Source: Methylobacterium sp. WL1 (GTDB taxonomy: Bacteria; Pseudomonadota; Alphaproteobacteria; Rhizobiales; Beijerinckiaceae). Taken from it: a DNA stretch of 64,000 nt. This document shows, in pieces, positions 13,904-32,078 of the stretch; the stretch's first letter is position 1, and the number at the start of each line of letters is the position of its first letter. Made by a program: the position numbers and the translations under genes. The DNA is taken from contig NZ_CP042823.1 of NCBI RefSeq assembly GCF_008000895.1, positions 4,071,001-4,135,000 on the forward strand. The letters are read 5' to 3'. The notes beneath the pieces were generated by a model that was not told where the DNA came from, did no database searches, and saw only the letters and a program-made list of their open reading frames with translations.

Positions 13904-14323
13904 TCAGATCCGGCCCTGCCGGGCGTCGAGGCTGAACGGGCCGGCCCCGAAGGCCGCGACCTGAAGCAAGCCGCCCGCCACGGCGAGGTTCTTCAGGAAA
14001 TGGAACATCTGGTTCGGGTCTGCCAGCGCCGTGTGGAAGGTCAGGGCGGTGGCCACCGCGAACCCGGCGAGCCCGAGGGCGACGAGCCGGGTCCGGTAGC
14101 CGAGGATCAGCAGCAGGCCGCCCAGGACCTCCACCAGGGCGGCGGCCGCGAACGAGACCTCCGGCAGCGGCAGGCCGGCGGCCCGGATGGTGGCGAGCGT
14201 CGCCTCCGGGGCGGCGAGCTTGCCGACCCCGCTCACCAGGAACAGGGCGCTCATCAGGAGCCGGCCGGATACCGGCAAGAGGGCGGCGGCGGGGGCGGCG
14301 GCGGGGGCGATCGGGGAAGCCAT
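13904..14323 (-). CDS. DoxX family membrane protein
   Basis: 139-aa integral membrane protein with four predicted helices (RLLMSALFLVSGVGKL; VSFAAAALVEVLGGLLLILG; VALGLAGFAVATALTF; LKNLAVAGGLLQVAAF). These are DoxX-family features, including the SALFLVSGVGKL opening. In B. subtilis the DoxX protein MhqP sits with ring-cleaving dioxygenase MhqO in a quinone-responsive operon; the same partners occur here. ATG 14323 was preferred over an upstream start at 14416, which adds an Arg/Pro tail with no family likeness. Confidence 0.88.
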   Translation of the reverse strand: MASPIAPAAAPAAALLPVSGRLLMSALFLVSGVGKLAAPEATLATIRAAGLPLPEVSFAAAALVEVLGGLLLILGYRTRLVALGLAGFAVATALTFHTALADPNQMFHFLKNLAVAGGLLQVAAFGAGPFSLDARQGRI

Positions 14324-14360
14324 GGCGATACCCGGTTCAAGGTGGGGACGTTGGCGCGGA

Positions 14361-14993
14361 TCAGGCCGCGCCCGGTCGGGCGAGGCCGCGGATCCAGTCC
14401 GCCGCGAGGCCGACATCGGCCTGGGACAGGCCGTGGCCGACCGGCACGACCCGGTGCGCCACCGCGGCGCCGGCCGCTGTGAGCTGGTGGGCCAGCCGGC
14501 CGGCGTTCTCGGCGGGGACGATCGGATCCATCGCCCCGGAGAGCATCAGCACCGGCTTGCCCGCCAGGTCGGCGACGGGCGGCTCGGAGAGCGGCACCAT
14601 CGGGCGGATCAGCACGGCGCCGGCCAGCACCTCAGGCGCCAGCATCAGCAGCGCGGCGGCGATGTTGGCACCGTTGGAGAAGCCGAGCGCCACGGGGGCG
14701 GCGATCCCGTAGCGCTTCCGCGCCGCGGCCACGAAGGCGGCGAGCTCCGCGGTGCGGAGGCGCAGGTCGGCCTCGTCGAACACACCCTCGGCCAGGCGCC
14801 GGAAGAACCGCGGCATGCCGTTCTCCGTCACCGCCCCGCGGGGCGACAGCAGGGCGGCGCCCGGGGCCACGATCCGGCCGAGCGGCAGGAGATCGTGCTC
14901 GTTGCCGCCGGTCCCGTGCAGGAGCAGCAGCGGCGGGGCGTCGGCGGCGCCGGGTTCGAACAGGTGGATCAAGCCGAGGGAATCTTGGGTCAT
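14361..14993 (-). CDS. phospholipase/carboxylesterase-type alpha/beta hydrolase (MhqD-like)
   Basis: 210-aa serine hydrolase. The oxyanion strand is LLLLHGTGGNEHDLLPLG and the nucleophile elbow is GFSNGAN. The acid is in LSGAMDPIVP and the His in VPVGHGLSQAD. This small carboxylesterase type includes MhqD, which is induced by hydroquinones and sits with dioxygenase and DoxX genes. ATG 14993 gives the normal N-terminus. It lies 62 nt downstream of the dioxygenase gene, with a perfect 12-bp hairpin between them (15021-15050). Substrate unproven; it may cleave products of ring opening. Confidence 0.88.
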   Translation of the reverse strand: MTQDSLGLIHLFEPGAADAPPLLLLHGTGGNEHDLLPLGRIVAPGAALLSPRGAVTENGMPRFFRRLAEGVFDEADLRLRTAELAAFVAAARKRYGIAAPVALGFSNGANIAAALLMLAPEVLAGAVLIRPMVPLSEPPVADLAGKPVLMLSGAMDPIVPAENAGRLAHQLTAAGAAVAHRVVPVGHGLSQADVGLAADWIRGLARPGAA

Positions 14994-15020
14994 GGCGACC
15001 TCACGGGTGGCATGGTTGGC

Positions 15021-15050
15021 GCCTCCGCTCCGTTCGTCCGGAGCGGAGGC
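15021..15050 (-). terminator. 12-bp perfect hairpin inside the Mhq-like operon
   Basis: GCCTCCGCTCCG (15021-15032) and CGGAGCGGAGGC (15039-15050) with a 6-nt loop, in the gap between the dioxygenase and hydrolase genes. No T-tract on the minus strand. It could be a partial terminator or an mRNA stabiliser that sets relative expression. Confidence 0.5.
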
Positions 15051-15055
15051 TTCGG

Positions 15056-15982
15056 TCAGGCGACCTTCGGCAGCACCGCCTCGATCTGGGCCCGGTGCGG
15101 CTCCAGCCCGGCGGGCAGCTTCAGGGCGGTGCCGAGGGATTCCGCCGGCTCGTCGATGGCGAAGCCGGGGGCATCGGTGGCGATCTCGAACAGCACGCCG
15201 CCGGGCTCGCGGAAGTAGACCGACCGGAAGTACTGCCGGTCCCGCTGCTCGGTGACCTGGAGGCCGAGCCCGGCGAGTTTTTCGGCCATCGCGGCCTGCG
15301 CGGCGTCGTCGGCCGCCCGGAACGCGATGTGGTGGACCGAGCCCGCCCCCTGCCGGCCGGGCAGGAAGCCGCCCACCGCCCGGAGGGTCACGAAGCCGCC
15401 GAGCGCCGCGCTGCCGGCGAACCGGATCAGGTTGCCCTCGCGGGCCTCCTCGCGCAGGCCCAGCACCTCCGTGAGGATCGCGGCCGTTCCCTGTGCCGTC
15501 TCCAGGAGGAGCGTCACCCCGTGCAGGCCGCGGATCGCGTGCTCGGCCGGCACCTCGGCCGAGGCCCAGGCGGGCTCCGCCTCCGCGCCGTCGACGCCCA
15601 CCAGCGCCAGCATCATCCCGTCGGGATCCCGGAAGCGCAGGGTCGGCGCACCGAACACCTGGACCAGCGGCTCGTGGGCGACGGCCTTCTCGATCAGCCG
15701 GTGGGTCCACCAGCCGATCGAGCCCCGGGGCACCCGGAACGCGGTCTCCTGGGTCTCGCCGATCCCGACCCGGCCGGGGGCCGCGTGCGCGATCGGAAAG
15801 AAGGTCAGGATCGTGCCGGGCTGCCCGGACGCGTCGCCGTAATACAGGTGGTAGGTGCCCGGATCGTCGAAGTTGACGGTCTTCTTCACCAGCCGCTGTC
15901 CGAGCACGCGGGTGTGGAAGTCGAGGTTGCGCATTGCCGGGCCGGAAAAGGCCGTGACGTGGTGGAGGCCGGACTGCACCAT
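15056..15982 (-). CDS. ring-cleaving dioxygenase, VOC family (MhqO-like)
   Basis: 308-aa protein with two tandem vicinal-oxygen-chelate modules. It opens with GLHHVTAFSG (metal His) and has a second-module GLHGVTLLLE, SVHHIAFRAADD and the late Glu in GGVLFEIATDAPGFA. That is the ring-cleaving dioxygenase/MhqO pattern, thought to open (hydro)quinone rings. ATG 15982 is preceded by CGGGAG. It is the first gene of a four-gene leftward operon and is divergent from a LysR gene. Substrate range is inferred from family only. Confidence 0.9.
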   Translation of the reverse strand: MVQSGLHHVTAFSGPAMRNLDFHTRVLGQRLVKKTVNFDDPGTYHLYYGDASGQPGTILTFFPIAHAAPGRVGIGETQETAFRVPRGSIGWWTHRLIEKAVAHEPLVQVFGAPTLRFRDPDGMMLALVGVDGAEAEPAWASAEVPAEHAIRGLHGVTLLLETAQGTAAILTEVLGLREEAREGNLIRFAGSAALGGFVTLRAVGGFLPGRQGAGSVHHIAFRAADDAAQAAMAEKLAGLGLQVTEQRDRQYFRSVYFREPGGVLFEIATDAPGFAIDEPAESLGTALKLPAGLEPHRAQIEAVLPKVA

Positions 15983-16079
15983 GACGCTGTCTCCCGAGAG
16001 GCCGCCGCGAGAAGCGCGGTGGACGTGTGTCGATGACGGCAATCTGGCCCTTGCCATCGGATCCGAAAATAGAAACGCT

Positions 16080-16096
16080 GGAAACCCATCGTTTCC
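16080..16096. promoter_or_regulatory. candidate LysR operator
   Basis: Perfect inverted repeat GGAAAC-CCATC-GTTTCC in the gap between the divergent dioxygenase and lysR genes, ending just before the lysR start. LysR-type regulators commonly bind T-N11-A dyads in such positions. Confidence 0.5.
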
Positions 16097-16099
16097 GGA

Positions 16100-17028
16100 A
16101 TGAGACCCATGCGGCTCCCCGATTTCGAGGCCTGGGCGGTCTTCGCCAAGGTGGTGGAGGTGGGCTCGTTCGGCCGGGCCGCGGACGACCTCGGCCTGTC
16201 GAAGGGCACCGTCTCGAAGGCGGTGGGCCGGCTGGAGGCCCGGATCGGCGCGCGGCTGTTCAACCGCACCTCGCGCAAGCTCGCCCTGACGGAGGCCGGC
16301 CACGCCGCCAAGGCCGGCGCCGCCCGGATCCTGGCGGAGGGCGAGGCCGCGGAGGCGCAGGCCGTGGCGGGCGCCGCGGAGCCGCGCGGCCTGGTCCGCC
16401 TCGCGGCCCCGATGACCTTCGGGGTGATGCACGTGGCGCCGCTGTTGCCGGATTTCCTGCGGCAGCACCCGGCGGTCTCGGTGGACCTGCACCTGTCGGA
16501 CGCGGTGGTAGATCTCGTCGGCGGCGGCTTCGATATCGGCCTTCGGATCGCGGCGCTGCCGGATTCCTCCCTACGGGCCCGGCGGCTCTGCGCGATCCGG
16601 CGCTCGCTGGTGGCGACGCCGGCGTATCTCGACCGGCACGGGCGGCCCGGACATCCGGACGACCTCGCCCGCCACGCCTGCCTGGGCTACGCCTACCTGC
16701 CGACCCCGACCGCTGGCGCTTCATCGACGCGGCCGGCGCGGAGGCCGTGATCGTGCCCGGCGGACAGCTGCGGGCGAACAACGCCGAGGCGCTGGCCCCG
16801 GCGCTCCGGGCCGGGCTCGGCCTCGCCCTGCAGCCGGACTTCATGATCTGGGACGACCTGGAGGCCGGGCGGCTCGAGCGGGTCCTGCCAGGCTGGTCGC
16901 CGCCCCCGATCGCGCTCCACCTCGTGACGCCCCCCGGCGACCCGCGGCCGGCCCGGATCACCGCGCTGCTGGGCTATCTGGGCCAGACGCTCGCCCAGGC
17001 GCCCTGGGCCGGTCCGGCGCCGGGATAA
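16100..17028 (+). pseudogene. LysR family transcriptional regulator, one frameshift
   Basis: LysR regulator. The winged HTH is at residues 5-65 ([36 protein letters not shown]). It is followed by a periplasmic-binding-like effector domain ([34 protein letters not shown]). The frame is lost in the C run at 16704-16707; one added C continues as [20 protein letters not shown] to a normal C-terminus at 17028 (309 aa). Divergent orientation and the dyad at 16080-16096 point to control of the Mhq-like operon, probably with a quinone or phenolic effector (inference). Confidence 0.85.
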
Positions 17029-17499
17029 GGCCGCCGCCATGGGCGGCACGACCGGCCATCGCAGGCCTGCGGGGCTGAAATTCTAACGTGGTTGAATGCC
17101 GGTCCGGCAAGAGCGCGGGACAACCGCAATCCGACCATGTCCCGACGGCTGCTACACGTTGAATGATTTTATACAAAGTTTCTTGACTCGCACGATTGTA
17201 TCTGACGAGATCGAAACTCTTGATGACCCGACCTTTCCAGGGATGGCCGGGACCCGAATCGATCGACGCGCGTCTGCTTCCGGCGTCGATCGGACCGATC
17301 CCCGGACGTCATGGGAGGGATGCGGTGTCGACCGACGTTGGAACCGTCCTGCGGGTCAGGGCATCCGTCGCGCAGGGCCGCGTCGCCCGATGAGGACACC
17401 GATCGAGAATCCCCAGCGCCGCACGCCCGCCCGCGTCCGGCATCCGCTCCAACCGCGCGCCCGGCTTGTGCCCGTGAGCTCCGTCCGGTCGAGGCCCCG
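17029..17499. other. intergenic upstream of gntR
   Basis: 471-bp gap. GC-rich except for 17155-17230, which is AT-rich and contains the spaced dyad ATACAA (17171-17176) and TTGTAT (17196-17201). No credible gene; the frame of gntR stays open upstream to 17311 but that part has no family similarity. Confidence 0.5.
17171..17201. promoter_or_regulatory. candidate GntR-type operator half-sites
   Basis: ATACAA (17171-17176) and TTGTAT (17196-17201) form an inverted pair about two helical turns apart, in the only AT-rich stretch upstream of gntR. FadR/FCD-type regulators often bind TTGTATACAA-like dyads; here the halves are separated. Confidence 0.3.
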
Positions 17500-18192
17500 A
17501 TGCTGACTGCGGTGCCCTCTCGCTCCGTGCCTGACCGCCTGCGCCACAAGACCGTGGCCGCGGCCGTCGCGGAATCCCTGCGCCAGAGGATCCTGACCGG
17601 CGAGTTTCCGGCCGGCACGCAGCTGCGCCAGGACGCGCTCGCCGAGGAGTTCGGGATCAGCCGGATCCCGATCCGCGAGGCGCTGCTGCAGCTCGAGGCC
17701 ACCGGCCTGATCAAGATCATGCCGCATCGCGGGGCCGTGGTCTCGGGCCTGTCGGTGGAGGAGGTCGAGGACATCTTCGCCCTGCGCGTCCGGCTCGAGC
17801 CGGAACTGCTGGCCCTCTCGGCGCCGCGCCTGTCGGAGCAGGACCTCCAGGGCCTGCGCGACCTCACCGAGGAATACGGCACCGCCCTGGAGGCCGGCGA
17901 GATCCTGCGCTGGGGCGAGCTGAACCAGCGCTTCCATCTCGACCTGCTGCGGCATGCCGGTCGCCCGCGCTCGCTGACCATCGTGGCCAGCCTGCTGCAG
18001 GATTGCGACCGCCCGACCCGGCTGCAGCTCTCGGCCTCCGGCGACGTCGCCCGCGCCGACCGGGAGCACCGGGAAATCCTCGCCCTGTGCGAGGCCGGCC
18101 GGTTCGACCGGGCGGCCGACCACCTGCGCCGTCACATCGAGTTCGCCGCGCAATCCCTGATCGCCATCTACCGGCGCGCGCTCACGCCGTGA
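17500..18192 (+). CDS. GntR family regulator, FCD domain
   Basis: 230-aa FadR-subfamily regulator. The winged HTH is at residues 15-80 (LAEEFGISRIPIREALLQLE; GLIKIMPHRGAVVSGLS). The C-terminal FCD ligand domain contains LRVRLEPELLALSA, NQRFHLDLLRHAG and HLRRHIEFAAQSL, whose Asp/His residues usually bind metal and a carboxylate effector. ATG 17500 gives the standard N-terminus. It heads the amide/nitrile locus on the same strand, so a role in that pathway is likely but not shown. Confidence 0.88.
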   Translation: MLTAVPSRSVPDRLRHKTVAAAVAESLRQRILTGEFPAGTQLRQDALAEEFGISRIPIREALLQLEATGLIKIMPHRGAVVSGLSVEEVEDIFALRVRLEPELLALSAPRLSEQDLQGLRDLTEEYGTALEAGEILRWGELNQRFHLDLLRHAGRPRSLTIVASLLQDCDRPTRLQLSASGDVARADREHREILALCEAGRFDRAADHLRRHIEFAAQSLIAIYRRALTP

Positions 18193-18512
18193 ACGACCCC
18201 ATGGCAGCGCCCGGTGGCGGGCCGACCAGCGCCCGCACCCTGCTGGCCGGGATGCCCTGATCGCCCCCACGCGGTGGTCGCACGGTAAAATCGGTTCGCG
18301 GTCGGCTGCCCCACCACGGATAGCGTGGCCGATGGGGCCGCGCTCCTGCACGGGATGGCTTCGGCTGTGCAGGAGCGCCATATCCCGCCTCCCGGTCCCG
18401 CCCCCGCGCACCCGTCGCCCCGGCGCCTTGGTTTCCAAGGCTGTCGCGACTGCGTTAGGACGGGGCGCGCGCGGTCGCCCGGCGGGCGGCCTTCAGCACG
18501 GGTGGGGATGCC
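18193..18512 (+). other. leader region before the AmiC-like gene, two hairpins
   Basis: 320 bp without a gene. It contains two adjacent stem-loops: GCCCCACCAC...GTGG...TGGGGC (18308-18338) and the perfect 12-bp stem GCGCTCCTGCAC / GTGCAGGAGCGC (18340-18351 with 18367-18378). Neither has a T-tract. Confidence 0.5.
18308..18378 (+). ncRNA. tandem hairpin leader structure
   Basis: Two consecutive hairpins separated by one or two bases, 135 nt upstream of the AmiC-like gene. The second has a perfect 12-bp stem with a 15-nt loop. It may end gntR transcription or act in the leader of the amiC-amiR message; function unknown. Confidence 0.4.
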
Positions 18513-19667
18513 ATGGCAGGCAAGGACGAAGCGACATGGCGGGTCGGCGTCCTGTTCTCACGCAGCGGGGTTAGCGGCATCACCGAGACCGAGCACTTCC
18601 TCGGCACGGCCCTGGCGATCGAGGAGATCAACACGGCCGGCGGCGTGCTCGGGCGGCCGATCGAACCGATCTGCTACGATCCGGCCGGCGACAACGATGC
18701 GTATCGGTCCTATGCCCGACGGATGCTCGCCGAGGACGGGGCCGAGGTGATCTTCGGATGCTCGCTCTCGGCCAGCCGCAAGTCGGTCCTGTCCACCGTC
18801 GAGCGGCACAACGGCCTGCTCTGGTACCCGTCGATCTACGAGGGCTTCGAGTATTCGGAGAACATCATCTACACGGGCGCGACCCTCAACCAGAACGTCT
18901 TCGCGTTGGCAGACTACCTCCTCCAGGAGCATGGCCCCCGGATCTTCCTGATCGGGTCCGACTACATCTACCCGCGCGAGTCGAACCGGGTCATGCGCGA
19001 TCTGGTCGAGACCAAGGGCGGGACCATCGTCGGCGAACTCTACGCCCCCCTCGACGCCGACGATGCGGGCCATGTCGACATGATCGCCGAGATCCGCCAC
19101 GCGGCGCCGGACGCGGTGTTCTCGACCGTGGTCGGGCGCGGCGCCGAGCGGCTCTACCGGGCCTACGCCGCATCGGGGATCGACCGGCGGCGCTGCCCGA
19201 TCGCCAGCCTGACCCTGGCGGAGGGCCAGATCCGGGCGATCGGCCCGGACCGGTGCAGCAGCCACGTCCTGGCGGCCTCGTATTTCGCGGCCCTCGTGGG
19301 CGAGGAGAACCGGCGCTTCGTCACCGCCTTCCAGACCCGGTTCGGGTCTGAGCGCCCGACCAGCATGTGGTCTGAGACCGCCTACGCGCAGGTGCATCTC
19401 TTCGCCCGCGCCCTGGCGGAGGCCGGCACCCTCGATGCCGAGCGCCTCGGCGCCGCGGCTCTGCGGCAGCGCCTCGCGGCACCGGAAGGCGAACTCGCCT
19501 TCGATGGCGAGACGCGGCACGTCTGGCTCACCCCCGGCATCGGCGTCGCCCGCGCCGACGGGCAGTTCGACGTCGTCTGGCGGGCGCGCCGACCGGTGCG
19601 GCCCGATCCGTACCTCGCCTGGTCCCGGTTCGAGACGAACTGCCTGGACGAGGGGATGGCCGCGTGA
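18513..19667 (+). CDS. AmiC-like amide sensor (urea/short-chain amide binding family)
   Basis: 384-aa protein of the Peripla_BP_5 family (AmiC, UrtA, FmdD). It begins WRVGVLFSRSGVSGITETEH with no signal peptide, so it is cytosolic like Pseudomonas AmiC, which binds amides and holds the antiterminator AmiR inactive until ligand arrives. Family stretches include NGLLWYPSIYEGFEYSENII and RIFLIGSDYIYPRE. It overlaps the ANTAR gene by 4 nt (GTGA), as expected for a sensor made in step with its partner. The ligand is unknown but should match the nitrilase/amidase pathway downstream. Confidence 0.88.
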   Translation: MAGKDEATWRVGVLFSRSGVSGITETEHFLGTALAIEEINTAGGVLGRPIEPICYDPAGDNDAYRSYARRMLAEDGAEVIFGCSLSASRKSVLSTVERHNGLLWYPSIYEGFEYSENIIYTGATLNQNVFALADYLLQEHGPRIFLIGSDYIYPRESNRVMRDLVETKGGTIVGELYAPLDADDAGHVDMIAEIRHAAPDAVFSTVVGRGAERLYRAYAASGIDRRRCPIASLTLAEGQIRAIGPDRCSSHVLAASYFAALVGEENRRFVTAFQTRFGSERPTSMWSETAYAQVHLFARALAEAGTLDAERLGAAALRQRLAAPEGELAFDGETRHVWLTPGIGVARADGQFDVVWRARRPVRPDPYLAWSRFETNCLDEGMAA

Positions 19668-20290
19668 CGGCGCCCGCCCGCAGGATCCTGGACGACCTGA
19701 GGCGGGCGAGAGCCCTGGTCATCCATCCCAGCGACGAGGAGGGCGCCGCGCTTCTGGAGCAACTCCGGCGCCTCGGCTGCGCGGTCTCCCTCGCCTGGCC
19801 GCCGCCGGCGGCCTTACCGCCGGACATCGACACGCTGTTCATCCAGCTCGACGACGCGCAGGTGATGCACCTCCTGCCGTCGATCGAGGAGATCGAGCCC
19901 GCCGTCATCGCCATCGTGGCCTACGAGAGCCCGACGTCGCTGAAGGCGATCGCCGACGTCAACGCGCACGGGGTGCTGAACAAGCCGCTGCACCCGCGCG
20001 GGGTGCTGACCCAGTTTGCCCTGGCCCGCTATCGGCGCGGCTACGAGGGCCGGTTGATCAGCAAGATCAACCGGCTGGAGGAGACCATGAAGGGCCGCCG
20101 CACCGTCGAGAAGGCGGTCCGGCTGCTCGTGGAGCTCAACCGGATCGACGAGGAGGCCGCCTACAAGATGCTTCGGGACCGTGCCACCGCGTCCCGCGTG
20201 CCGATGGCGAGCGTGGCCGAGAGCGTCGTCTCGGCCCACGAGGCGATGAGCGGCCTCGGCTTGCGCATCGCGTTGGCGGAGAAGACCTGA
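19664..20290 (+). CDS. AmiR-like ANTAR-domain antiterminator
   Basis: 208 aa. The N-terminal part (residues 1-125) is a receiver-like fold without clear phosphorylation residues, as in AmiR. A coiled coil follows (YEGRLISKINRLEETMKGRR), then a C-terminal ANTAR RNA-binding domain (VEKAVRLLVELNRIDEEAAY, then KMLRDRATASR). AmiR-type proteins bind a two-hairpin leader and stop terminator formation. GTG start 19664 overlaps the AmiC-like stop. Its likely RNA target begins about 80 nt downstream (20370-20445), directly before the nitrilase gene. Confidence 0.9.
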   Translation: MTAPARRILDDLRRARALVIHPSDEEGAALLEQLRRLGCAVSLAWPPPAALPPDIDTLFIQLDDAQVMHLLPSIEEIEPAVIAIVAYESPTSLKAIADVNAHGVLNKPLHPRGVLTQFALARYRRGYEGRLISKINRLEETMKGRRTVEKAVRLLVELNRIDEEAAYKMLRDRATASRVPMASVAESVVSAHEAMSGLGLRIALAEKT

Positions 20291-20369
20291 ATGCAGCAAC
20301 CTGCCGCAAATATCACCTTGCGACCCGTCTTCAGGCGCGTATCGTAGTCTTATCGGGCAAGGTTGCCCC

Positions 20370-20407
20370 GCAGCAGCATTGCTGCATGACATCTCGGCTT
20401 TGGAGCC
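20370..20407 (+). promoter_or_regulatory. candidate ANTAR antiterminator hairpins
   Basis: Hairpin 1, GCAGC-AGCATT-GCTGC, has a six-base loop (20370-20385). Hairpin 2, GGC-TTTGGA-GCC (20396-20407), also has a six-base loop and uses the bases AGCC that form the 5' arm of the following terminator, so the two structures exclude each other. This matches the two-hairpin, hexaloop layout known for ANTAR targets, although loop bases do not fully fit the consensus as I recall it. Confidence 0.55.
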
Positions 20408-20445
20408 TCTGGTCCGCGGATGACGTCCGCGCCCAGGGGCTTTTT
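20404..20445 (+). terminator. leader intrinsic terminator of the nitrilase operon
   Basis: AGCCTCTGG (20404-20412) pairs with CCAGGGGCT (20433-20441) through one G-U pair, with an inner GCGGA/TCCGC stem, followed by TTTTT. It sits 17-58 nt before the nitrilase ATG, so without antitermination it would block the operon. Confidence 0.85.
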
Positions 20446-20461
20446 GCGTTTTGGAGCCATC

Positions 20462-21307
20462 ATGATCCAAGCGAACGATCCCGCACGCCCGCCGTTACGG
20501 GTGTCCTGCATCCAGTTCGAACCGCAATTCGGTGCCGTCGCGGCCAATATCGCGCAGGCGTCCGATCTCATCCGCGCCGCCGTGGCGGAGGGCAGCCGGC
20601 TGATCGTCCTGCCCGAGCTCGCCAGCACCGGCTACGTGTTCGAATCCGACGCGGAGGCGGCCGCCCTCGCCGAGCCGGTGCCGGACGGGCCGACGGCCCG
20701 GGCCTGGGCGGCGCTCGCGGCGGAACTCGGCGTCCACATCGTGGCCGGCATCGCCGAGCGCGGGGACGGCGTCCTCTACAACGCCGCCGTGATCGTCGGG
20801 CCGCAGGGCTATATCGGCACCTACCGGAAGGCGCATCTCTGGGACCAGGAGAACGCGTTCTTCGCCAAGGGCGACCTCGGTTTCCCGGTCTTCGACACGG
20901 CGCTCGGCAAGATCGGGATCGCGATCTGCTATGATGGCTGGTTCCCCGAAACCTTCCGGCAGCTCGCCCTCGCGGGCGCCGAGATCGTCTGCATCCCGAC
21001 CAACTGGGTGCCGATGCCCGACCAGCCCGCGGGCGAGGCCGCCATGGCCAACACCCTGCACCGGGCCGCTGCTCACGCGAACGGCGTCTTCATCGCCTGC
21101 GCCGACCGCGTCGGCATCGAGCGCGGCCAGCCCTTCGAGGGGCAGAGCCTGATCATCGGGCCCAAGGGCTGGCCGCTGGCCGGCCCGGCGAGCCGCGACC
21201 GGACCGAGACCCTCTCGGCCGTGGTCGATCTCGACGAAGCCGGCCGCAAGGATTTGAACGCATTCAATTCCCTCCTGCGTGACCGCCGCACCGACATCTA
21301 CGGCTGA
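20462..21307 (+). CDS. nitrilase-superfamily carbon-nitrogen hydrolase
   Basis: 281-aa enzyme with the Glu-Lys-Cys triad: Glu52 in VLPELASTGY, Lys123 in TYRKAHLW and Cys156 in AICYDGWFPE. It acts on a nitrile or amide C-N bond. Size and motifs fit the aliphatic amidase/nitrilase-like branches; the substrate cannot be fixed from sequence. ATG 20462 follows GGAG and comes right after the ANTAR-controlled terminator, making it the first structural gene of the induced operon. An upstream in-frame start at 20420 would lie inside the terminator and was rejected. Confidence 0.9.
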   Translation: MIQANDPARPPLRVSCIQFEPQFGAVAANIAQASDLIRAAVAEGSRLIVLPELASTGYVFESDAEAAALAEPVPDGPTARAWAALAAELGVHIVAGIAERGDGVLYNAAVIVGPQGYIGTYRKAHLWDQENAFFAKGDLGFPVFDTALGKIGIAICYDGWFPETFRQLALAGAEIVCIPTNWVPMPDQPAGEAAMANTLHRAAAHANGVFIACADRVGIERGQPFEGQSLIIGPKGWPLAGPASRDRTETLSAVVDLDEAGRKDLNAFNSLLRDRRTDIYG

Positions 21308-21343
21308 CCCCGCCGCCACCGCGTCTTTCCCAGGAGCCCATTC

Positions 21344-22501
21344 ATGATGACACGTTCTCTCATCGGCACGGCCGCTGCGCTCGTGCTCGCGGCCTCGGCT
21401 GCGCAGGCCGCCGACGAAAAGCCCATCGTCATCGGCGTGCCGATCGGTCTGTCGGGGGCCAACAGCGTCGTCGCTCCCTCGGTGGTGCAGTCGGCCGAAC
21501 TCGCGGTCGAAGAAATCAATGCGGGCGGCGGCGTGCTCGGCCGGAAGCTCGTCCTGGAGGTGGCCGACGACGCCTCCGGCGCGGCCGGCGCACAGAAGGC
21601 CTTCGACGGCCTGATCTACCAGAAGAAGGTCGACGTCCTGATCTCCATGGAGACGAGCGCGGCCCGCAACGCCGGCCTGCCCGCCGTCACCAAGGGCCGC
21701 GTGCCGTACATCTACACCTCGTTCTACGAGGGGCATTCCTGCAACAAGAACATGTTCGTGGATGCCTGGGTGCCGGAGCAGCAGGTGCCGCCGGTGATCG
21801 ACGCCTTCAAGGCCAAGGGCGCCAAGACCTACTTCCTCATCGGCAGCGACTACGCGTTCGGGCGCGGCATGCTCGGCTTCGCCAAGACCTACGCCGAGAA
21901 GACCGGCGGCAAGGTGGTGGGCGAGGAATACCTGCCGATGGACGGCAGCGACTGGACCGCGATCATCTCCAAGCTGAAGGAGGCCAAGCCCGACGCGCTG
22001 GTCACCTCGACCGCCGGCGGCGCGCCGAACGTCACGCTCACCAAGCAGCTGCGCGGCGCCGGCGTGTCTCTGCCCTTCGCCAACCTCGCGCTGGACGAGG
22101 GCACCGCCAAGAGCATGGGCGCCGACGCCGAGGGGGTCTACCTGTCGGCCTCCTACGTCACCGGGATCGACAGCCCGGAGAACAAGACCTTCCTGGCCGC
22201 CATGAAGAAGAAGTTCGGCGCCGAGCTGCGGACGCCCAACGATCTCTCGGTGCCGGAATACGAGGCGATCTACCTCTACAAGGCCGCCGTCGAGAAGGCG
22301 GGGGGCACCGAGACCGCGAAGGTGCTCGAGGCCCTGCCCACCGTGAGCGTGACCGGGCCGCGGGGCACGATCCGCATGAGCAAGCAGCACCACGCACCCC
22401 TGACCATGTATCTCGGCCAGATCCAGGCGGACGGATCGGTCAAGGTCGCGGGCACCTTCAAGGATGTCGATCCCGGCGAGCAGTGCCCGAAGCTGCCGTG
22501 A
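21344..22501 (+). CDS. ABC transporter periplasmic substrate-binding protein (urea/amide family)
   Basis: 385-aa binding protein with signal peptide (LIGTAAALVLAASAAQAADE). It is a paralogue of the AmiC-like sensor: PYIYTSFYEGHSCNKNMFVD and KTYFLIGSDYAFGRGM correspond to the same positions. It feeds the Liv-type permease encoded downstream. So the locus uses one fold twice, once in the periplasm for uptake and once in the cytosol for sensing. A GC hairpin (22514-22537) separates it from the permease genes. Confidence 0.92.
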   Translation: MMTRSLIGTAAALVLAASAAQAADEKPIVIGVPIGLSGANSVVAPSVVQSAELAVEEINAGGGVLGRKLVLEVADDASGAAGAQKAFDGLIYQKKVDVLISMETSAARNAGLPAVTKGRVPYIYTSFYEGHSCNKNMFVDAWVPEQQVPPVIDAFKAKGAKTYFLIGSDYAFGRGMLGFAKTYAEKTGGKVVGEEYLPMDGSDWTAIISKLKEAKPDALVTSTAGGAPNVTLTKQLRGAGVSLPFANLALDEGTAKSMGADAEGVYLSASYVTGIDSPENKTFLAAMKKKFGAELRTPNDLSVPEYEAIYLYKAAVEKAGGTETAKVLEALPTVSVTGPRGTIRMSKQHHAPLTMYLGQIQADGSVKVAGTFKDVDPGEQCPKLP

Positions 22502-22513
22502 CGTGATGCGCCT

Positions 22514-22537
22514 CTCCCTCCCTCCCGGGGGAGGGAG
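22514..22537 (+). repeat. GC-rich hairpin between binding protein and permease genes
   Basis: CTCCCTC (22514-22520) and GAGGGAG (22531-22537) with a CCTCCCGGGG core. It belongs to the same class as the intergenic palindromes at 12.8 and 49.8 kb. Inside an ABC operon such a hairpin often protects the 5' message and raises binding-protein yield. Confidence 0.5.
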
Positions 22538-22606
22538 CGTCCGGGATCGGCCGTCGGGCCGATCCGCTTACGCCGCGCGAAGACGCCGGCCCATCCGGAA
22601 GCTGCG

Positions 22607-23440
22607 ATGCTGCTCATCCTCGACATCCTGACCACCGCGGCGATCCTGTTCGTGGTCTCGATCGGCCTCCTCGCGATCTTCGGCGTCCTCAAGATCATCA
22701 ATTTCGCCCACGGGGCGTGGCTGACGATCGGCGCCTACTGCGCCGTGGTGACGGCCAGGCTCGGGCTCAATCCCTGGGCGGCGCTGCCGCTGGCCTTCGT
22801 GGTCGGCGCGGGCCTCGGCGGCCTGGCGGAGCACTTCATCATCCGCCCCCTCTACCGCAGGCCGCTGGACGCGATCCTCGCCACCTGGGGGCTCGGGATC
22901 GTGCTCGGCCAGCTCATCACCCTGGCCTTCGGCCGCGACGTCCAGCTCACCCCGAACCTGTTCTCGGGCACCGTCGCATTCCTCGGCGTCGACTATTCCG
23001 CCTACCGGCTCGTGGCCCTCGGCATCGCCCTCGCGATCGGGATCCTGTTCGCCCTCACCATCGAGCGGACGCGGCTCGGCCTGTCGGCCCGGGCCGTGAT
23101 CATGAACGAGACCCTGGCCCGCAGCCTCGGCATCGATACCGGGCGGGTGCGCCTGGTGGTGTTCATGATCGGCGCGGGCCTCGCGGCGCTGGCGGGCGTC
23201 CTCCTGACTCCGCTGACCAGCGTCGATCCCAACATGGGGGTGAGCTGGCTGATCGGCGCCTTCATGCTGGTGATGGTCGCCGACGCGTCCTTCCTGGCGC
23301 TCGCGGCGGCCTGCCTCGTCTTCGGAGCCGCGCAGGTCCTGATCAGCACCTTCGTCAGCCCGATCCTGGGCAGCATCGCCGTGGCAGTGCTCGCGGCCCT
23401 CGTCCTGCGCGTCAGCCCGAAAGGTTTCTCCCGTGCTTGA
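22607..23440 (+). CDS. branched-chain/urea-type ABC permease (LivH-like)
   Basis: 277-aa inner-membrane permease with about eight helices. Family motif positions are visible: INFAHGAWLTIGAYCAVV near the N-terminus and SLGIDTGRVRLVVFMIGAGL with AALAGVLLTPLTSVDP in the second half. It pairs with the permease domain of the next gene, which it overlaps by 8 nt. Confidence 0.92.
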   Translation: MLLILDILTTAAILFVVSIGLLAIFGVLKIINFAHGAWLTIGAYCAVVTARLGLNPWAALPLAFVVGAGLGGLAEHFIIRPLYRRPLDAILATWGLGIVLGQLITLAFGRDVQLTPNLFSGTVAFLGVDYSAYRLVALGIALAIGILFALTIERTRLGLSARAVIMNETLARSLGIDTGRVRLVVFMIGAGLAALAGVLLTPLTSVDPNMGVSWLIGAFMLVMVADASFLALAAACLVFGAAQVLISTFVSPILGSIAVAVLAALVLRVSPKGFSRA

Positions 23441-25232
23441 CACGATCCCCGCCACGGAGCGCGCCGCCCTCTCCGGTGGACGCCTCGCCCGGACGGCGCC
23501 CCTCGTGGTCGCGGCGGTGGCGGCCTCGGCCCTCTGGATCGCGCCGGCGTTCCTCGACACCTTCGCGGTCAACGTGCTGACCCGCTCGATGATCTACGCG
23601 GTGCTCGCCGTCACGGTGGACCTGCTCTGGGGCTTTGCCGGCATCCTGACCTTCGGCCAGGCCGCCTTCTTCGGCGTCGGCGCCTACGCCGCCGCGATGA
23701 TCCTGGGCGCCTACGGGGCGACCCCGCTCGGGATTGCGGCCGGCATCGCCACCGCGGTCGCGGCGCCGGCCCTGCTCGGCCTCGCGGTGGGGTGGCTGTC
23801 CTTCTATCACCGCTCGACGCCGCTCTACGCCTCGGTGATCTCGCTGGTCGTCCCGATCGTCGTGACGCAGCTCATCTATTCGGGCGGCGAGTGGACCGGC
23901 TCCAGCAGCGGCCTCGTCGGGTTCGACGTGCTGCCCTTCGAGATCGAGGGCTATTTCCGCCTCGCGGCCCTGTTCCTGATCGCCGTCACGCTGGCGGCCT
24001 GGATCCTGGTGCGGTCGGATGCCGGGCGCGCCCTCGTGGCGTTGCGCGACAACGAGGCGCGCTGCGCCTATCTCGGCCTCAACCCCCGGCGCCTGCAGAT
24101 CCTCCTGACCGCGGCGCTGGCCGCCGTGGCCGGGCTCGCGGGGTTCCTGTTCGCCAACGCGTCCGGCGTGGTCGCCCCCGAGAATGCCGGCTTCCTGTTC
24201 GGCACCGAACTGGTGATCTGGGTGGCGCTCGGCGGCCGCGGCACGCTGCTCGGCCCGGTCCTCGGCACGATCGCCATCGACTACCTCGCGGCGAACCTCT
24301 CCGGCGACCTGCCCTTCCTCTGGCAGCTCCTGCTGGGGACGGCCTTCGTGGCGATCATCATCCTGCTGCCGGGCGGGCTCGCCGACCTCGCCGGCCGGCT
24401 GTGGCGGGCGCTGCCGCTCGGCCGGACGGAGCCCGCCGCCCCCGCCCTGGTGGCGCGGGACGCCACCGCCGCCGCGACCGCGACGGATGCGCCGATCCTC
24501 AAGGTGGAAGGCCTGGCCAAAGCCTATGGCAGCCTGACCGTGCTCGAAGGCATCGACCTGGAGATCCGGGCGGGCGAACTCGTCAGCCTCGTGGGCCCCA
24601 ACGGCGCCGGAAAGACCACGCTGATGCGCTGCCTCAGCGACGGCACCGAGCCCTTCACCGGCGCCATCGCCATCGGCGGCACGGCGATTTCCGGCCTGAC
24701 GCCGAACCGGATCGTCGGGCTCGGGGTCGGCCGCAAGTTCCAGGTGGCGAGCGTGTTCGAGAGCCTGTCGGTGGCCGATTGCCTGCGGCTCGCGCGGGCC
24801 CCGCATGACGGGCTGAACCCGGTCGGCCGGGCTCCGACGCTGGGCCTGCCGCAGGCGGCCCTCGACGTGCTGCGGATGACCGGCCTCGACCGCCTGCTGA
24901 CGCAGCCCGCGCGCCTCCTGTCCCATGGCCAGAAGCAGGCCCTGGAACTCGCCATGGTGGTGGCGCTGGAGCCACGGCTGATCCTGCTCGACGAGCCCAC
25001 CGCCGGCCTGACCAAGGCGGAGCGCACCACCATCGGGACCGTCCTCAAGGCGCTGACCGCCGGGCGCCGGATCGCCGCCGTCCTGGTCGAGCACGACCTC
25101 GACTTCGTGCGGGAGATCTCGTCCCGGATCGTGGTGCTGCACCAGGGCCGCCTGGTTCTCGACGGCACCGTGGACGCGGTCGTCGGCTCCGAGCTGGTCC
25201 GCACCATCTATTCGGGAGGCGCCCATGGTTGA
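23433..25232 (+). CDS. fused ABC permease (LivM-like) and ATPase (LivG-like)
   Basis: 599 aa. Residues 1-335 are a LivM-type permease (GFAGILTFGQAAFFGVGAYA; LVALRDNEARCAYLGLNP). Residues 350-599 are an ATPase with Walker A GPNGAGKT near residue 390, signature LSHGQKQALELAMVV near 495 and Walker B LILLDEPTAGL. Such fusions occur in urea/amide Liv systems. The reading frame is continuous, so it is not an artefact of a missed stop. It overlaps livF-like by 8 nt. Confidence 0.92.
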   Translation: MLDTIPATERAALSGGRLARTAPLVVAAVAASALWIAPAFLDTFAVNVLTRSMIYAVLAVTVDLLWGFAGILTFGQAAFFGVGAYAAAMILGAYGATPLGIAAGIATAVAAPALLGLAVGWLSFYHRSTPLYASVISLVVPIVVTQLIYSGGEWTGSSSGLVGFDVLPFEIEGYFRLAALFLIAVTLAAWILVRSDAGRALVALRDNEARCAYLGLNPRRLQILLTAALAAVAGLAGFLFANASGVVAPENAGFLFGTELVIWVALGGRGTLLGPVLGTIAIDYLAANLSGDLPFLWQLLLGTAFVAIIILLPGGLADLAGRLWRALPLGRTEPAAPALVARDATAAATATDAPILKVEGLAKAYGSLTVLEGIDLEIRAGELVSLVGPNGAGKTTLMRCLSDGTEPFTGAIAIGGTAISGLTPNRIVGLGVGRKFQVASVFESLSVADCLRLARAPHDGLNPVGRAPTLGLPQAALDVLRMTGLDRLLTQPARLLSHGQKQALELAMVVALEPRLILLDEPTAGLTKAERTTIGTVLKALTAGRRIAAVLVEHDLDFVREISSRIVVLHQGRLVLDGTVDAVVGSELVRTIYSGGAHG

Positions 25233-25956
25233 GGTCGCGCAACGCACCGCGCCGTCGGGGGCCGCCCTCGACCTCGATGCCGTAGCGAGCGGCTACGGCG
25301 CCGTCTCGATCGTGAAGGGCGTGTCCCTGGCGGTGGGAGCGGGCGAGATCGTCGCCCTCCTCGGCAAGAACGGCATGGGCAAGACCACGCTGCTGAAGAC
25401 CATCCTCGGGATGGTGGCCCTGCGCGGGGGCAGGATCACCATCGCCGGACAGGGGCTCTCCGGGCTGTCCCCCGCCAAGCTCGTGGCGCTCGGCGTCGGC
25501 TACGCCCCCCAGGAGCAGCCGCTGTTCCAGGACCTGTCGATCCGCGACAACCTGCGCCTCGCGGTGCCGTCCGACCGGCACCTGCCGGAGGCGCTGGAGC
25601 GCCTGTTCGGCCATTTCCCGTTCCTGAAGGACCGGCTCGCCCAGCGCGCCGGCACGCTCTCCGGGGGCGAGCAGAAGATGCTGATCCTCGGCCGCGCCCT
25701 GATGCTGCGCCCGCGCCTGCTCCTGATCGACGAGATCTCCGAGGGCGTGCAGCCCTCGATGGTCGAGCGCCTGCGCGCCGTGCTCCTGGCGGAGCGGGCC
25801 TCGGGCCTGTCCATGCTGGTGGTGGAGCAGCACGTCGCCTTCGCGCTGGGCCTCGCCGACCGCTACGCCGTGCTCAAGCTCGGCGAGATCGTCGACAGCG
25901 GCTCGGCCAAGGGCCCGGATGCGCAGGCCCGCGTCATCGACCACCTCGCGGTGTGA
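25225..25956 (+). CDS. ABC transporter ATP-binding protein (LivF-like)
   Basis: 243-aa ATPase: Walker A GKNGMGKT at residues 47-54, signature TLSGGEQKMLILGRAL, Walker B LLLIDEISEG, H-loop VVEQHVAF. It is the second ATPase of the Liv-type importer. It overlaps the fused permease-ATPase gene by 8 nt and is followed at once by the DUF1028 gene. Confidence 0.93.
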   Translation: MVEVAQRTAPSGAALDLDAVASGYGAVSIVKGVSLAVGAGEIVALLGKNGMGKTTLLKTILGMVALRGGRITIAGQGLSGLSPAKLVALGVGYAPQEQPLFQDLSIRDNLRLAVPSDRHLPEALERLFGHFPFLKDRLAQRAGTLSGGEQKMLILGRALMLRPRLLLIDEISEGVQPSMVERLRAVLLAERASGLSMLVVEQHVAFALGLADRYAVLKLGEIVDSGSAKGPDAQARVIDHLAV

Positions 25957-25959
25957 GGC

Positions 25960-26883
25960 ATGATGGAACTCAACACCTTCTCCATCGCCGCCCGGTGTCC
26001 CCGGACCGGGCAGCTCGGCGTCGCGGTGGCGAGCGCCGTGCCGGCCGTGGGCGGCCTCTGCCCGTACATCCGGGCGGGGATCGGGGCCGTCACCACCCAA
26101 TCCTGGGTGAACCCCTACCTCGCCCTGCGCATCCTCGACGGGCTCGCCGGGGGGCAGCAAGCGGACGCGGCCCTCGCGGCCGCGCTCGAGACCGACGACC
26201 GGCCGGACCTGCGCCAGATCGGGCTGGTGGATGCGGGCGGCGCGGCCGCCGCCTGGACCGGTGCCGGCTGCACGGCGCAGGCCGGGCACCGCACCGGAGC
26301 CGGATACGCCGTGCAGGGCAACATGCTGGCCGCCCCCGGCGTGATCGACGCCATGGCCGAGGCCTTCGCGGGCAGCGCCGCCTGCGACCTCGACGAACGG
26401 CTGATGCGCGTCCTCGAAGCCGGCGAGGACGCGGGCGGCGATCGGCGCGGCAAGCAATCGGCGGCGCTGAAGATCGTCGCCCGCGAGGATTATCCGTGCC
26501 TCGACCTGCGCGTCGACGAGCATGCCGCCCCCGTGGCCGAGCTGCGCCGCGTCCTCGCCGTGGCCCGGCGGCAGCTCGTGCCCTTCGTGGCCGGGATGCC
26601 GCGGCGGGAGGAGCCGGCCGGCGCGTTGCCGGAGGATGTCGCCGCGATGCTGCTTCGGTCTCCCGGCGAGCGGCCCGGCGCGGCGGCCGCGGGCGCGCTG
26701 GACCCGCTGCACGACATCGTCGGCCTGCCCCCGGAGCCGGCCGCACGGGTCGCGCACCTGCATGCGCAGTTCGCGCCGGTCCTGGCCGAGATCCGGACCC
26801 TGCGCGACCTCGACCTCGCGGCGGTCCATCCCCCGGTCGTCTTCGACCCGAGCCTCCCCTATCGCCGGGTGCCCCATGACTGA
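25960..26883 (+). CDS. DUF1028 domain protein
   Basis: 307-aa DUF1028 protein. The family has an Ntn-hydrolase-like fold and is often encoded with amidases or peptidases, but its reaction is not established. The N-terminal domain begins MMELNTFSIAARCPRTGQLG and has GIGAVTTQSWVNPYLALR and a GYAVQGNML stretch. A roughly 100-residue C-terminal tail follows. ATG 25960 and ATG 25963 are alternatives. It overlaps the amidase gene by 8 nt, implying coupled translation and a joint role in breaking down the imported substrate. Confidence 0.85.
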   Translation: MMELNTFSIAARCPRTGQLGVAVASAVPAVGGLCPYIRAGIGAVTTQSWVNPYLALRILDGLAGGQQADAALAAALETDDRPDLRQIGLVDAGGAAAAWTGAGCTAQAGHRTGAGYAVQGNMLAAPGVIDAMAEAFAGSAACDLDERLMRVLEAGEDAGGDRRGKQSAALKIVAREDYPCLDLRVDEHAAPVAELRRVLAVARRQLVPFVAGMPRREEPAGALPEDVAAMLLRSPGERPGAAAAGALDPLHDIVGLPPEPAARVAHLHAQFAPVLAEIRTLRDLDLAAVHPPVVFDPSLPYRRVPHD

Positions 26884-28282
26884 CGCCATCTGGTCCCTGC
26901 CGATCACGGAGCTCGCCCGGCGGATCGCGGCGCGGGAGCTCTCGAGCGTCGCGCTCGTCGGCGCTTACCTCGACCGGATCGGGCGCCTCGACGGCGACCT
27001 CCAGAGCTTCGTGTGCCTGTCCTCGGCCGCCCTCGACGCGGCGCGCGCGGCGGACGAGGAGATCGCCCGGACGGGGCCGCGCGGGCCGCTCCACGGCATC
27101 CCGATCGGCATCAAGGACAATTACACGACCGCCGACCTGCCGACCCGGGCTGGCACCTCGGTCGACGCCCTGACCTTCCCGCGGGAGGACAGCCATTGCG
27201 TCGCGAGGCTGCGGGCGGCCGGCGCCGTGATCCTCGGCAAGCTGCGCATGCACGAATTCGCCTGGGGCATGGTCACGCCGCCGACGCGCAACCCCTGGGA
27301 CCTCGCGCGGGTGCCCGGCGGATCCAGCGGCGGATCGGGGGCGGCGGTGGCAGCCCGGCTGTGTCCGGCGGCGCTCGGCTCGGATACCGGCGGCTCGATC
27401 CGGATCCCGGCGGCCCTCTGCGGCGTCGTGGGCCTCAAGCCGACCTATGGACGGATCGGCCGCTCGGGGATCGTCCCGCATTCCTGGTCCCTCGACCATG
27501 CCGGGCCGCTCACCCTGACGGTGGCCGACGCGGCGCTCCTGCTCCAGGTCCTGGCGGGCCCCGATCCGGCCGACCCTGCCGCCGCCTCCGTGCCCGTGCC
27601 GGATTACACGGCCGGGCTCGACGAGCCGGTCGGCGGATTGCGGGTGGCGGTGATCCGCAACCATTTCTTCGAGGCGGTCGACGAGGACGTCGCCGCGGCG
27701 GTCGAGGAGGCGATCCGCTTCTTCGCCGGGCAGGGCTGCACGGTCCGGGACGTCACGGTGCCCGCCCTGCGTTACGGGCTCGGCGCCATCTACGCCATCG
27801 AGCTGGCGTCCTCCACGGCCTATCACGACCGCAGCCTCGCGCAGGGCCACGTGGCGGGCTTCGCCGACGACGTCCGGGACCTCGTCGAGATGGGCCGGTT
27901 CGTGACCGGTCCGGACTACCTGCGGGCCGAGCAGGCCCGGGGGCTGATCATGGCCGAGATGGCCGCCACGCTGGACGACGCGGACGTGATCGTCACCCCG
28001 GCCTCGCCGCTGACCGCGTGGCGGACCGACGAGGCGACCGTGGCGCTCGCGGGCCGGCAGGAGAGCGTGCTGGCGGCGTCCTGGCGCCTCACCTACCCGT
28101 TCAATCTGACGGGGCTGCCCGCCATCGCGCTGCCCTGCGGCTTCGACCGGCGCGGCCTGCCGATCGGCCTGCAAATCGCCGCCCGGCCCTTCGCCGAGGG
28201 GATGCTTCTCCGGTTCGCGCACCGATACGAGCAAGCGCACGGTTGGTGGCATCGTGTCCCGCACGTCGGGAGGGAGCCGTGA
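26876..28282 (+). CDS. amidase signature family hydrolase
   Basis: 468-aa amidase. The Ser-cisSer-Lys triad is Lys80 ([12 protein letters not shown]), Ser150 ([13 protein letters not shown]) and Ser174 ([13 protein letters not shown]). It hydrolyses an amide to acid and ammonia. ATG 26876 overlaps the DUF1028 stop region; the frame is open far upstream but only this start gives the family N-terminus. Last gene of the amide/nitrile operon. Together with the nitrilase it could convert a nitrile or diamide fully to acid plus ammonia; the substrate is unknown. Confidence 0.92.
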
Positions 28283-28328
28283 CCGCAAGGCGGCGACGCT
28301 GCTGCGGGCCCGCGTTCCTTGTGCCTCG

Positions 28329-31789: not shown

Positions 31790-31897
31790 GGTTGTCGAGC
31801 CGGAGGCTTCAGCGTGAGCGCGTGCGGGCGACGGGCCCACGGGGCCGCGCCGTCCCTGCGTTCCGCCGGGGCACCCCGCCCGAGGGTCGTCGTCGCG

Positions 31898-32078
31898 CCG
31901 AGGCAGGTCTCCTGGCTCGCGGGTCACGATCCCGGCCTGGTCTTCCCGATGCGACGCATCAGTGACCACGGGCGGCAGGGACTCACCGCTTACAGTTGCG
32001 GGGGCAGCTTCGGCCTTGCCCGTACGAGCGCACCGAATTCCCATCTTCGCCCGCGGACCGAAGCCCGCGGGAACCTTG
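31898..32078 (-). ncRNA. cobalamin riboswitch
   Basis: On the minus strand the conserved core reads GCTGCCCCCGCAACTGTAAG (32008 down to about 31989). It is preceded by GGGAATTCGGTGCG, and followed by GGTCACTGATGCG, GGGAAGACCAGGCCGGG and the closing GAGCCAGGAGACCTGCC. This is the standard order of B12 riboswitch elements. It should shut off the downstream TonB receptor gene when adenosylcobalamin or a related corrinoid is plentiful. Ends are approximate. Confidence 0.95.

Follow-up and report, generated by a model that had tools for sequence, protein, structure and literature searches.

What decides whether an operon is transcribed when it begins behind a terminator, directly downstream of genes for a ligand sensor and an antiterminator? 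The question is raised by the window, a 64,000-nucleotide (nt) stretch of the Methylobacterium sp. WL1 genome (contig NZ_CP042823.1, positions 4,071,001 to 4,135,000), in which an AmiC-like sensor gene (18513–19667) and an AmiR-like antiterminator gene (19664–20290) overlap by 4 nt and are followed by a 171-nt leader (20291–20461) and a carbon-nitrogen hydrolase gene; all leader and operon features given here lie on the + strand. The sensor matches Pfam PF13433 (Peripla_BP_5) at 1.8e-125 and 419 bits, reaches 280 bits against the Pseudomonas aeruginosa AmiC structures 1qnl/1pea (279.7 to 1qnl), and is probably cytosolic, no signal peptide having been noticed on inspection by eye. The AmiR-like protein carries AmiR_N (PF21332, 1.3e-32, 112.6 bits) and ANTAR (PF03861, 2.6e-13, 50 bits), scores 82.6 bits against AmiR 1qo0_D, was aligned also to 6wsh_A, and is 99% identical to its counterpart in M. 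mesophilicum NBRC 15688. These matches bear out the original prediction, a first reading of this DNA that had placed an AmiC-like/AmiR-like pair with a 4-nt overlap before the leader. Judging from sequence, we consider it highly probable that the locus is an antitermination switch of the AmiC/AmiR type whose RNA target is derived, having three hairpins with closed loops. The mechanism class is already known; what appears new is the form of the RNA target and the AmiR changes that go with it.

The leader contains three short hairpins and a predicted intrinsic terminator. The first, H1 (GGGC-AAGGTT-GCCC, 20355–20368), has the canonical ANTAR loop, with A at loop position 1 and G at position 4 (A1, G4), and ends one base upstream of H2 (GCAGC-AGCATT-GCTGC, 20370–20385), whose loop is non-canonical in having A4. 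The third, H3 (GGC-TTTGGA-GCC, 20396–20407), would be the P2 hairpin of an ANTAR target, which consists of a P1 and a P2; it keeps G4 and has U1. The predicted terminator has its stem at 20404–20441 and its T-run at 20441–20445, and its 5′ arm (AGCC) overlaps the 3′ arm of H3. H2 and H3 are the hairpins 1 and 2 first noted, and the sequence and the folds agree with that reading as to these two hairpins, the T-tract terminator and the claim that the common AGCC arm lets only one of hairpin 2 and the terminator form: a leader cut at 20411 is predicted to fold into H1, H2 and H3, and RNA extended from 20350 into H1, H2 and the terminator, so that H3 and the terminator are mutually exclusive in the predicted folds. 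By predicted energy the terminator alone reaches −26.5 kcal/mol and H3 −3.4.

When compared with dinucleotide shuffles, the predicted fold of 20350–20461 is clearly non-random (z = −3.57, 0 of 200 shuffles as good), while the energy of the three hairpins without the terminator (20350–20411) is unexceptional (z = −1.13, 25 of 200 as good). A C-G-closed A1/G4 hexaloop on a stem of at least 4 pairs arises in 0.33% of 20,000 letter shuffles of 20350–20411. The original prediction had proposed folding the whole of 20291–20461; that fold is also better than its shuffles (z = −2.71, 2 of 200 as good), but a predicted long-range fold of the 171-nt piece conceals H1 and H2. We rejected the 171-nt fold as the working form since a promoter-like sequence sits inside it, a rejection that is as firm as this putative promoter. 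A consensus terminator scan, limited to loops of 3–8 bases, missed 20404–20445, where the closing stem is not continuous and has a longer stretch inside it, and an Rfam search of 14000–32000 at E up to 10 returned six matches, none of them an ANTAR target, the presence of an ANTAR model in Rfam 15 not having been established.

To see how far the arrangement recurs, relatives of AmiR were drawn from overlapping genome samples, each including the own genome: 35 of 199 genomes in an order-level draw (E up to 1e-10); 7 of 385, 8 of 199 and 30 of 111 in class-level, family-level and genus draws at E 1e-20; and 34 of 397 in a second order-level draw (E 1e-30), with 16 named Methylobacterium loci added. 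The resulting set of 67 loci (AmiR identity ∼41% or more) was counted separately from L014–L032, L049–L055, L059–L062, L089, L090, L102–L104 and the later L128–L155 (L numbers denote loci). The succession H1–H2–H3–terminator is present in 61 of the 67 loci, which amount to 44 distinct leaders, 16 leaders having been found twice, presumably from the same genomes in both collections. It is absent from L009–L013 and L058, five of which have one upstream A1-loop hairpin followed by H3; in L011 there is only H3 (P2), with no upstream hairpin assignable. The spacing is nearly constant: loop to loop, H1 and H2 are 16 nt apart in 42 of the 44 leaders (17 and 19 nt in the others), H2 and H3 23–25 nt apart in 43 (21 nt in the other), and H1 and H3 39–42 nt apart throughout (40 nt in the window). 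Folded individually, 43 of the 44 leaders pair the H3 arm into the terminator, and truncated leaders form H3 in 43 of 44. Lack of the two first-noted hairpins at homologous loci had been named as a refutation, and both recur; homology, gene order and conservation across the 44 leaders likewise support AmiC/AmiR antitermination in general.

When the own genome was searched with a model of the leader (R1), with scores computed for 150 of the 6371 candidates of a first look, the window site reached 76.9 bits. The next best match had 17.8 bits and E 1.4, and a wider AmiR regulon in this genome is unsupported on that score. These distributions also bear on the idea that the terminator is constitutive, or merely the end of amiCR, with the operon running from its own promoter and AmiR acting elsewhere. 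A GntR gene upstream (17428–18192) could control the region in such a case, yet the terminator-overlapping H3 lies directly 3′ of amiR in 61 of 67 loci and the element's sole good match among the genome candidates scored is here, and we regard this explanation as very improbable.

A promoter-like sequence, TTGCGA-N16-TATCGT, lies at 20318–20345 and would set the RNA start immediately 5′ of H1. A TTG occurs 30–44 nt 5′ of H1 in all 44 distinct leaders and at 36–38 nt in 39 of them (the chance level was not computed), and TATCGT, counted by eye, is present in 25 of the 28 Methylobacterium leaders. Because these elements are conserved upstream of H1, the RNA probably begins near 20350, and RNA with that 5′ end contains H1 and H2 in its predicted fold. 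The switching process would then run as follows, where we infer the promoter, the ligand control, the RNA binding and the identity of the bound upstream hairpin. RNA polymerase would start just before H1 and make H1, H2 and then H3. With no ligand, AmiC would hold AmiR, the terminator, far stabler than H3, would win, and the operon of hydrolase, ATP-binding cassette (ABC) transporter and amidase would stay off. When ligand is present, AmiC would, on the analogy of P. aeruginosa, release AmiR, which would be loaded on H1/H2 and then hold H3. Since the 3′ arm of H3 is the 5′ arm of the terminator, H3 held by AmiR would block the terminator and transcription would read through.

In excerpts of the EutV work, induction was lowered when loop position 1 was changed from A to U or position 4 from G to A, a 14-nt linker cut it drastically, the eut hairpin linkers measure 5–12 nt and eutP A29 to A53 spans 24 nt (PMC3369931); NasR, in part of its account, likewise selects for A1 and G4 in a loop closed by a C:G pair (PMC7496416). 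In the window only H1 conforms: A1 and G4 are not found in both hexaloops of any pair with H3, as AGCATT in H2 has A4 and TTTGGA in H3 has U1. The proposal that the ANTAR protein acts on hairpins 1 and 2 was incomplete: neither of the two loops fits A1 and G4, and H1, which was missed, has a loop that does and that is conserved within the genus. A C:G pair closes the loop in H1 and H2 of all 44 leaders, as the search pattern required, and in H3 of 43, the other being UG in a misaligned row. The H2–H3 linker is 10 nt, inside the eut range, and the H2–H3 loop distance in the window is 24 nt, like eutP; 27 nt lie between H1 and H3 including H2, or 11 unpaired nt if H2 is folded. The leader would, on the predicted structures, work like an ANTAR target, yet it fails the strict A1/G4 definition.

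The loops themselves are constrained unequally. Among the 28 distinct Methylobacterium leaders the H1 loop has A1 and G4 in 27 and shows 0.091 differences per site, where the 6 nt that precede H1 show 0.517; the H2 loop has A1 and G4 in 1 of 28, differs at 0.393 differences per site (fixed register) and is 5 nt long in three leaders; H3 has G4 in 28 of 28 and A1 in none. In the 16 distinct leaders of other genera, A1 and G4 occur together in 3 H1 loops and 6 H2 loops, and a strict need for G4 in upstream hairpins is rejected by these leaders. An ordinary dual-hairpin target, with H2 as P1, H3 as P2 and H1 as a 5′ stabilizing or insulating hairpin whose loop is kept for another reason, would account for the spacing, as the H2–H3 distance, 23–25 nt in 42 of 44 distinct leaders when counted by loci pattern with one register exception set aside, is close to the 24 nt of eutP and the linker of 10 nt lies within 5–12 nt (from the same excerpts of PMC3369931), and some two-hairpin relatives (L010, L012, L058) do show, by eye, an unrelated hairpin 5′ of P1. 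That the H2 loop varies so freely in Methylobacterium while the H1 loop is fixed makes this arrangement unlikely. The converse, in which H1 is the working P1 and the 16-nt H2 is a folded spacer looped out to leave 11 unpaired nt, near a standard linker, is consistent with the finding that in Methylobacterium the H1 loop and the stem of H2 are constrained but the H2 loop is not, and with the H1–H3 spacing of 39–42 nt. It too is doubtful, if somewhat less so, since the rule-conforming loop is H2 in L007, L097 and L099 and both loops conform in L008 and L100, and since even a 14-nt linker drastically lowered EutV induction in the excerpted account (PMC3369931). A duplicated P1, the working copy of which differs by lineage, is one reading of this pattern.

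The protein differs as well. In the part of the EutV structural account that bears on it, Met172 is essential for RNA binding and is proposed to exclude tetraloops (PMC8934654). Where EutV has Met172, which acts as a plug, every one of the 61 three-hairpin loci has Thr; of the remaining 32 alignment rows, 26 have Met and 6 have Thr, namely L009–L013 and the row of the window. Most further RNA-contact positions are kept in the 61 loci: Arg142 is R in 61, Lys147 is K in 54 or R in 7, Glu160 is E in 60, Tyr164 is Y in 61, Arg168 is R in 61 and Arg175 is R in 60. At the position of Lys149, one of the G4-holding residues, no three-hairpin locus has Lys, and 24 of the 32 other rows do; by eye these 24 are Met-type, and just two Met-type rows lack the lysine, L058 and L089 (Val).

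Across the three-hairpin leaders, loop positions 1 and 6 are able to pair with each other in H1 of 44 of 44 (one TA for AT), in H2 of 40 of 44 and in all 42 six-letter H3 loops, counting one UG. Because positions 1 and 6 pair, the Thr-type loop may in reality be a tetraloop. We compared Thr-type and Met-type systems after clustering the AmiR proteins at 70% identity, and repeated the comparison at 60%. At 70%, pairing is possible in P1 of 13 of 13 Thr-type and 3 of 11 Met-type clusters (Fisher p 0.0002) and in P2 of 12 of 12 and 5 of 14 (p 0.0007), and at 60% in P1 of 7 of 7 and 2 of 8 (p 0.007) and in P2 of 7 of 7 and 4 of 10 (p 0.035), p-values that overstate the contrast because the clusters are related by descent. 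G4 in P1 occurs in 6 of 13 Thr-type and 11 of 11 Met-type clusters at 70% (p 0.006), where the Met-type count is partly circular because a choice by eye could favour A1/G4 loops. Met-type P1 hairpins were chosen by eye, by distance and stem and with 1–6 pairing not a criterion, and those of L052 and L055 were also picked by eye. L015, L016, L060, L103 and L011 (P2 only) had no assignable P1; left out were L151 and L152 (ambiguous, P2 without G4), L061 and L090 (in-frame stop) and loci in which no leader was found, such as L021–L024, L053, L062 and L089. In P2 of the more distant Met-type clusters, A1 is present in 6 of 14 and G4 in 13 of 14, and A1 in P2 is thus not general even in more distant relatives.

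We tentatively propose, giving it somewhat less than even chances, that this AmiR clade switched its RNA specificity: with the change of the plug from Met to Thr and the loss of the G4-holding lysine, the target would have passed from an open A1–G4 hexaloop to a closed tetraloop and gained a third tandem hairpin. The main reading itself includes a milder form of this: the clade has Thr in place of the Met172 plug and target loops able to close a 1–6 pair, so that a tetraloop may be what is bound and the G4 rule may be relaxed in the upstream hairpins. Thr-type systems outside the 67 loci also fit, namely L140 with three hairpins and L138 with two. L138 (genome G1259) comes from the same phylum and another class, with a Thr-type AmiR and closed loops AGGGCT and TAGGAA, which suggests transfer or an old origin of the Thr-type system. 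The chances are about equal that the plug change and the 1–6 pairing are unrelated traits of one clade, inherited once: the Thr label needs two changes on the tree, and one is also possible, so the cluster counts are not independent. Against this view stands L058, a Met-type member inside the Thr clade (moderate support, 87/89) that has the unpaired, open loops AATGAC and AGGTTA.

Several results weigh against the three-hairpin reading or limit its support. Standard pairs fill 99.3% of 572 cells in the leader alignment (A1), a percentage that is partly by construction as the search pattern fixed most letters of the H1 and H2 arms, with G/A and C/T alternatives. Matched covariation, which was not built in by the pattern, counts in favour of the hairpins: both-side changes occur in 19 cells compared with 4.7 in shuffles, and the covariation score is 0.127 compared with 0.078, neither being reached in 500 shuffles. 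The covarying cells come from H1 (GC 36, AU 8) and H2 (AU 30, GC 11, GU 2). Pairs in which both sides vary number 2, where shuffles give 1.8, and further pair types number 6, where shuffles give 6.8, so that neither count exceeds the shuffles, and we regard the covariation support as modest because the search pattern fixed most stem letters. Individual folds predict H1 in only 40 and H2 in only 41 of the 44 leaders, and longer RNA reading through from amiCR is predicted to refold H1 and H2 otherwise. A sigma-70 consensus scan reported no site at the promoter-like sequence 20318–20345. The H1 loop lacks G4 in 13 of the 16 other-genus leaders and so is not universally canonical. On the protein, three contact positions are lost in the 61 loci: Lys149 (V 56, I 3, T 2), Asn173 (A 49, S 6, T 4, G 2) and Arg177 (P 51, T 5, A 4, Q 1), the last two also missing from the 32 other alignment rows.

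The genes that the switch would control appear, from their sequences, to take up and degrade compounds that resemble amides or nitriles. The hydrolase gene (20462–21307; nitrilase superfamily, PF00795, 1.6e-54), preceded by GGAG at 20453–20456, has 1j31, 6ypa, 7ovg and 3ivz as best solved relatives. It is followed by genes for a UrtA-like transporter substrate-binding protein (21344–22501; PF13458/PF13433, NCBIfam score under cut-off), a UrtB/LivH-like ABC permease (22607–23440; PF02653, NCBIfam scores under cut-offs), an ABC permease and ATPase fusion (23433–25232; PF02653 and PF00005), a UrtE/LivF-like ABC ATPase (25225–25956; PF00005, NCBIfam scores under cut-offs), a DUF1028 protein (25960–26883; PF06267, 1.3e-70) and an amidase of the amidase-signature family (26876–28282; PF01425, 6.5e-118). 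Because the binding protein and the AmiC-like sensor belong to one superfamily and are both related to solved urea-binding proteins, the sensor and the transporter may see the same ligand.

The order AmiC, AmiR, hydrolase, binding protein, permease, permease/ATPase, ATPase is found in 13 of 15 stretches from 15 genomes, the exceptions being L117, with the hydrolase 3′ of the ATPase, and L114, with AmiR but no adjoining AmiC match; L119, one of the 13, has split matches. It is complete in 14 of the 16 named Methylobacterium loci, while L037 ends within the permease near a contig end and L038 matches a 116-residue AmiC piece only. The genes 3′ of the transporter differ across L105–L119: DUF1028 was matched in 3 of 15 stretches (L111, L112, L116), and an amidase is close (60%) in one (L116) and distant (27–38%) in five, with none in reach in the rest. 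In genome G1037 (L101/L119) the AmiR, hydrolase and binding-protein matches are each broken in two, as would be seen in a copy that has decayed or was badly sequenced; the leader hairpins are present. Between the GntR and amiC genes, a perfect 12-bp inverted repeat, GCGCTCCTGCAC...GTGCAGGAGCGC, lies at 18340–18378; an inverted-repeat search found its sequence upstream of amiC in none of 14 relatives, which have other or weaker repeats there (L033 has a different 12-bp repeat). At the edge of the searched stretch lies a clipped cobalamin riboswitch (31885–32000, − strand, 62.6 bits), and the minus-strand gene 3′ of it has, by eye, the look of a TonB-type receptor.

How does this system compare with known ones? 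The sensor and antiterminator genes precede the leader here, whereas in P. aeruginosa we take amiC and amiR to lie after amiE. The P. aeruginosa AmiC/AmiR pair (1qo0) is a sensor and ANTAR protein homologous to the pair here, with His and Met where the AmiR of the window has Tyr and Thr. Its ami leader, as far as the excerpts of PMC3369931 describe it, has hairpins and a terminator as here; having three hairpins sets the present leader apart. The eut leaders of Enterococcus faecalis, in the excerpted accounts (PMC3369931, PMC8934654), share the short C:G-closed hairpins, of which the second is exclusive with the terminator, and the EutV system shares the 24-nt loop distance (H2–H3) and the equivalents of Tyr164, Arg168, Arg175 and Glu160. 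Unlike what those excerpts describe for eut RNA, the leader here has a third hairpin, U1 in P2, an H2 without G4 and pairable loop ends, and the AmiR of the window differs from EutV in Met172 to Thr and Lys149 to Val. The NasR/nasF and NasS–NasT nitrate leaders are also cases of ANTAR antitermination of nitrogen genes. In the literature searched, mostly outside subscription journals, we found no published three-hairpin or closed-loop ANTAR target.

A second ANTAR system is present in the same genome. Above the Pfam cut-off the genome has just one further ANTAR match, a NasT-like protein (named by eye) whose plug residue is Met, and an ANTAR-type leader lies 3′ of a NasT-like/NasS-like gene pair (also named by eye) at ∼2049–2150 of L156 (G000:C2 near 748050), with GTCCGTC-AATGGC-GACGGGC, an open A1/G4 loop, followed by a T-run terminator. 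Unlike the system of the window, this one thus joins an open, canonical P1 loop to a Met-plug protein, and the differing loop types would, by inference from sequence, keep the AmiR and NasT-like systems apart.

For ANTAR regulation more broadly, a dimer can hold a single hairpin although targets carry two, for which part of the EutV structural account proposes binding in steps, first to P1 and then to P2 (PMC8934654), and the present family, with three tandem hairpins at near-constant spacing and no Met172, is a natural test case for both the stepwise-binding and the tetraloop-exclusion proposals. Strict searches for A1/G4 dual hexaloops could overlook such targets. If the specificity switch is true, the canonical loop can move between two upstream positions, and AmiR is kept apart from the NasT-like ANTAR system of the same genome.

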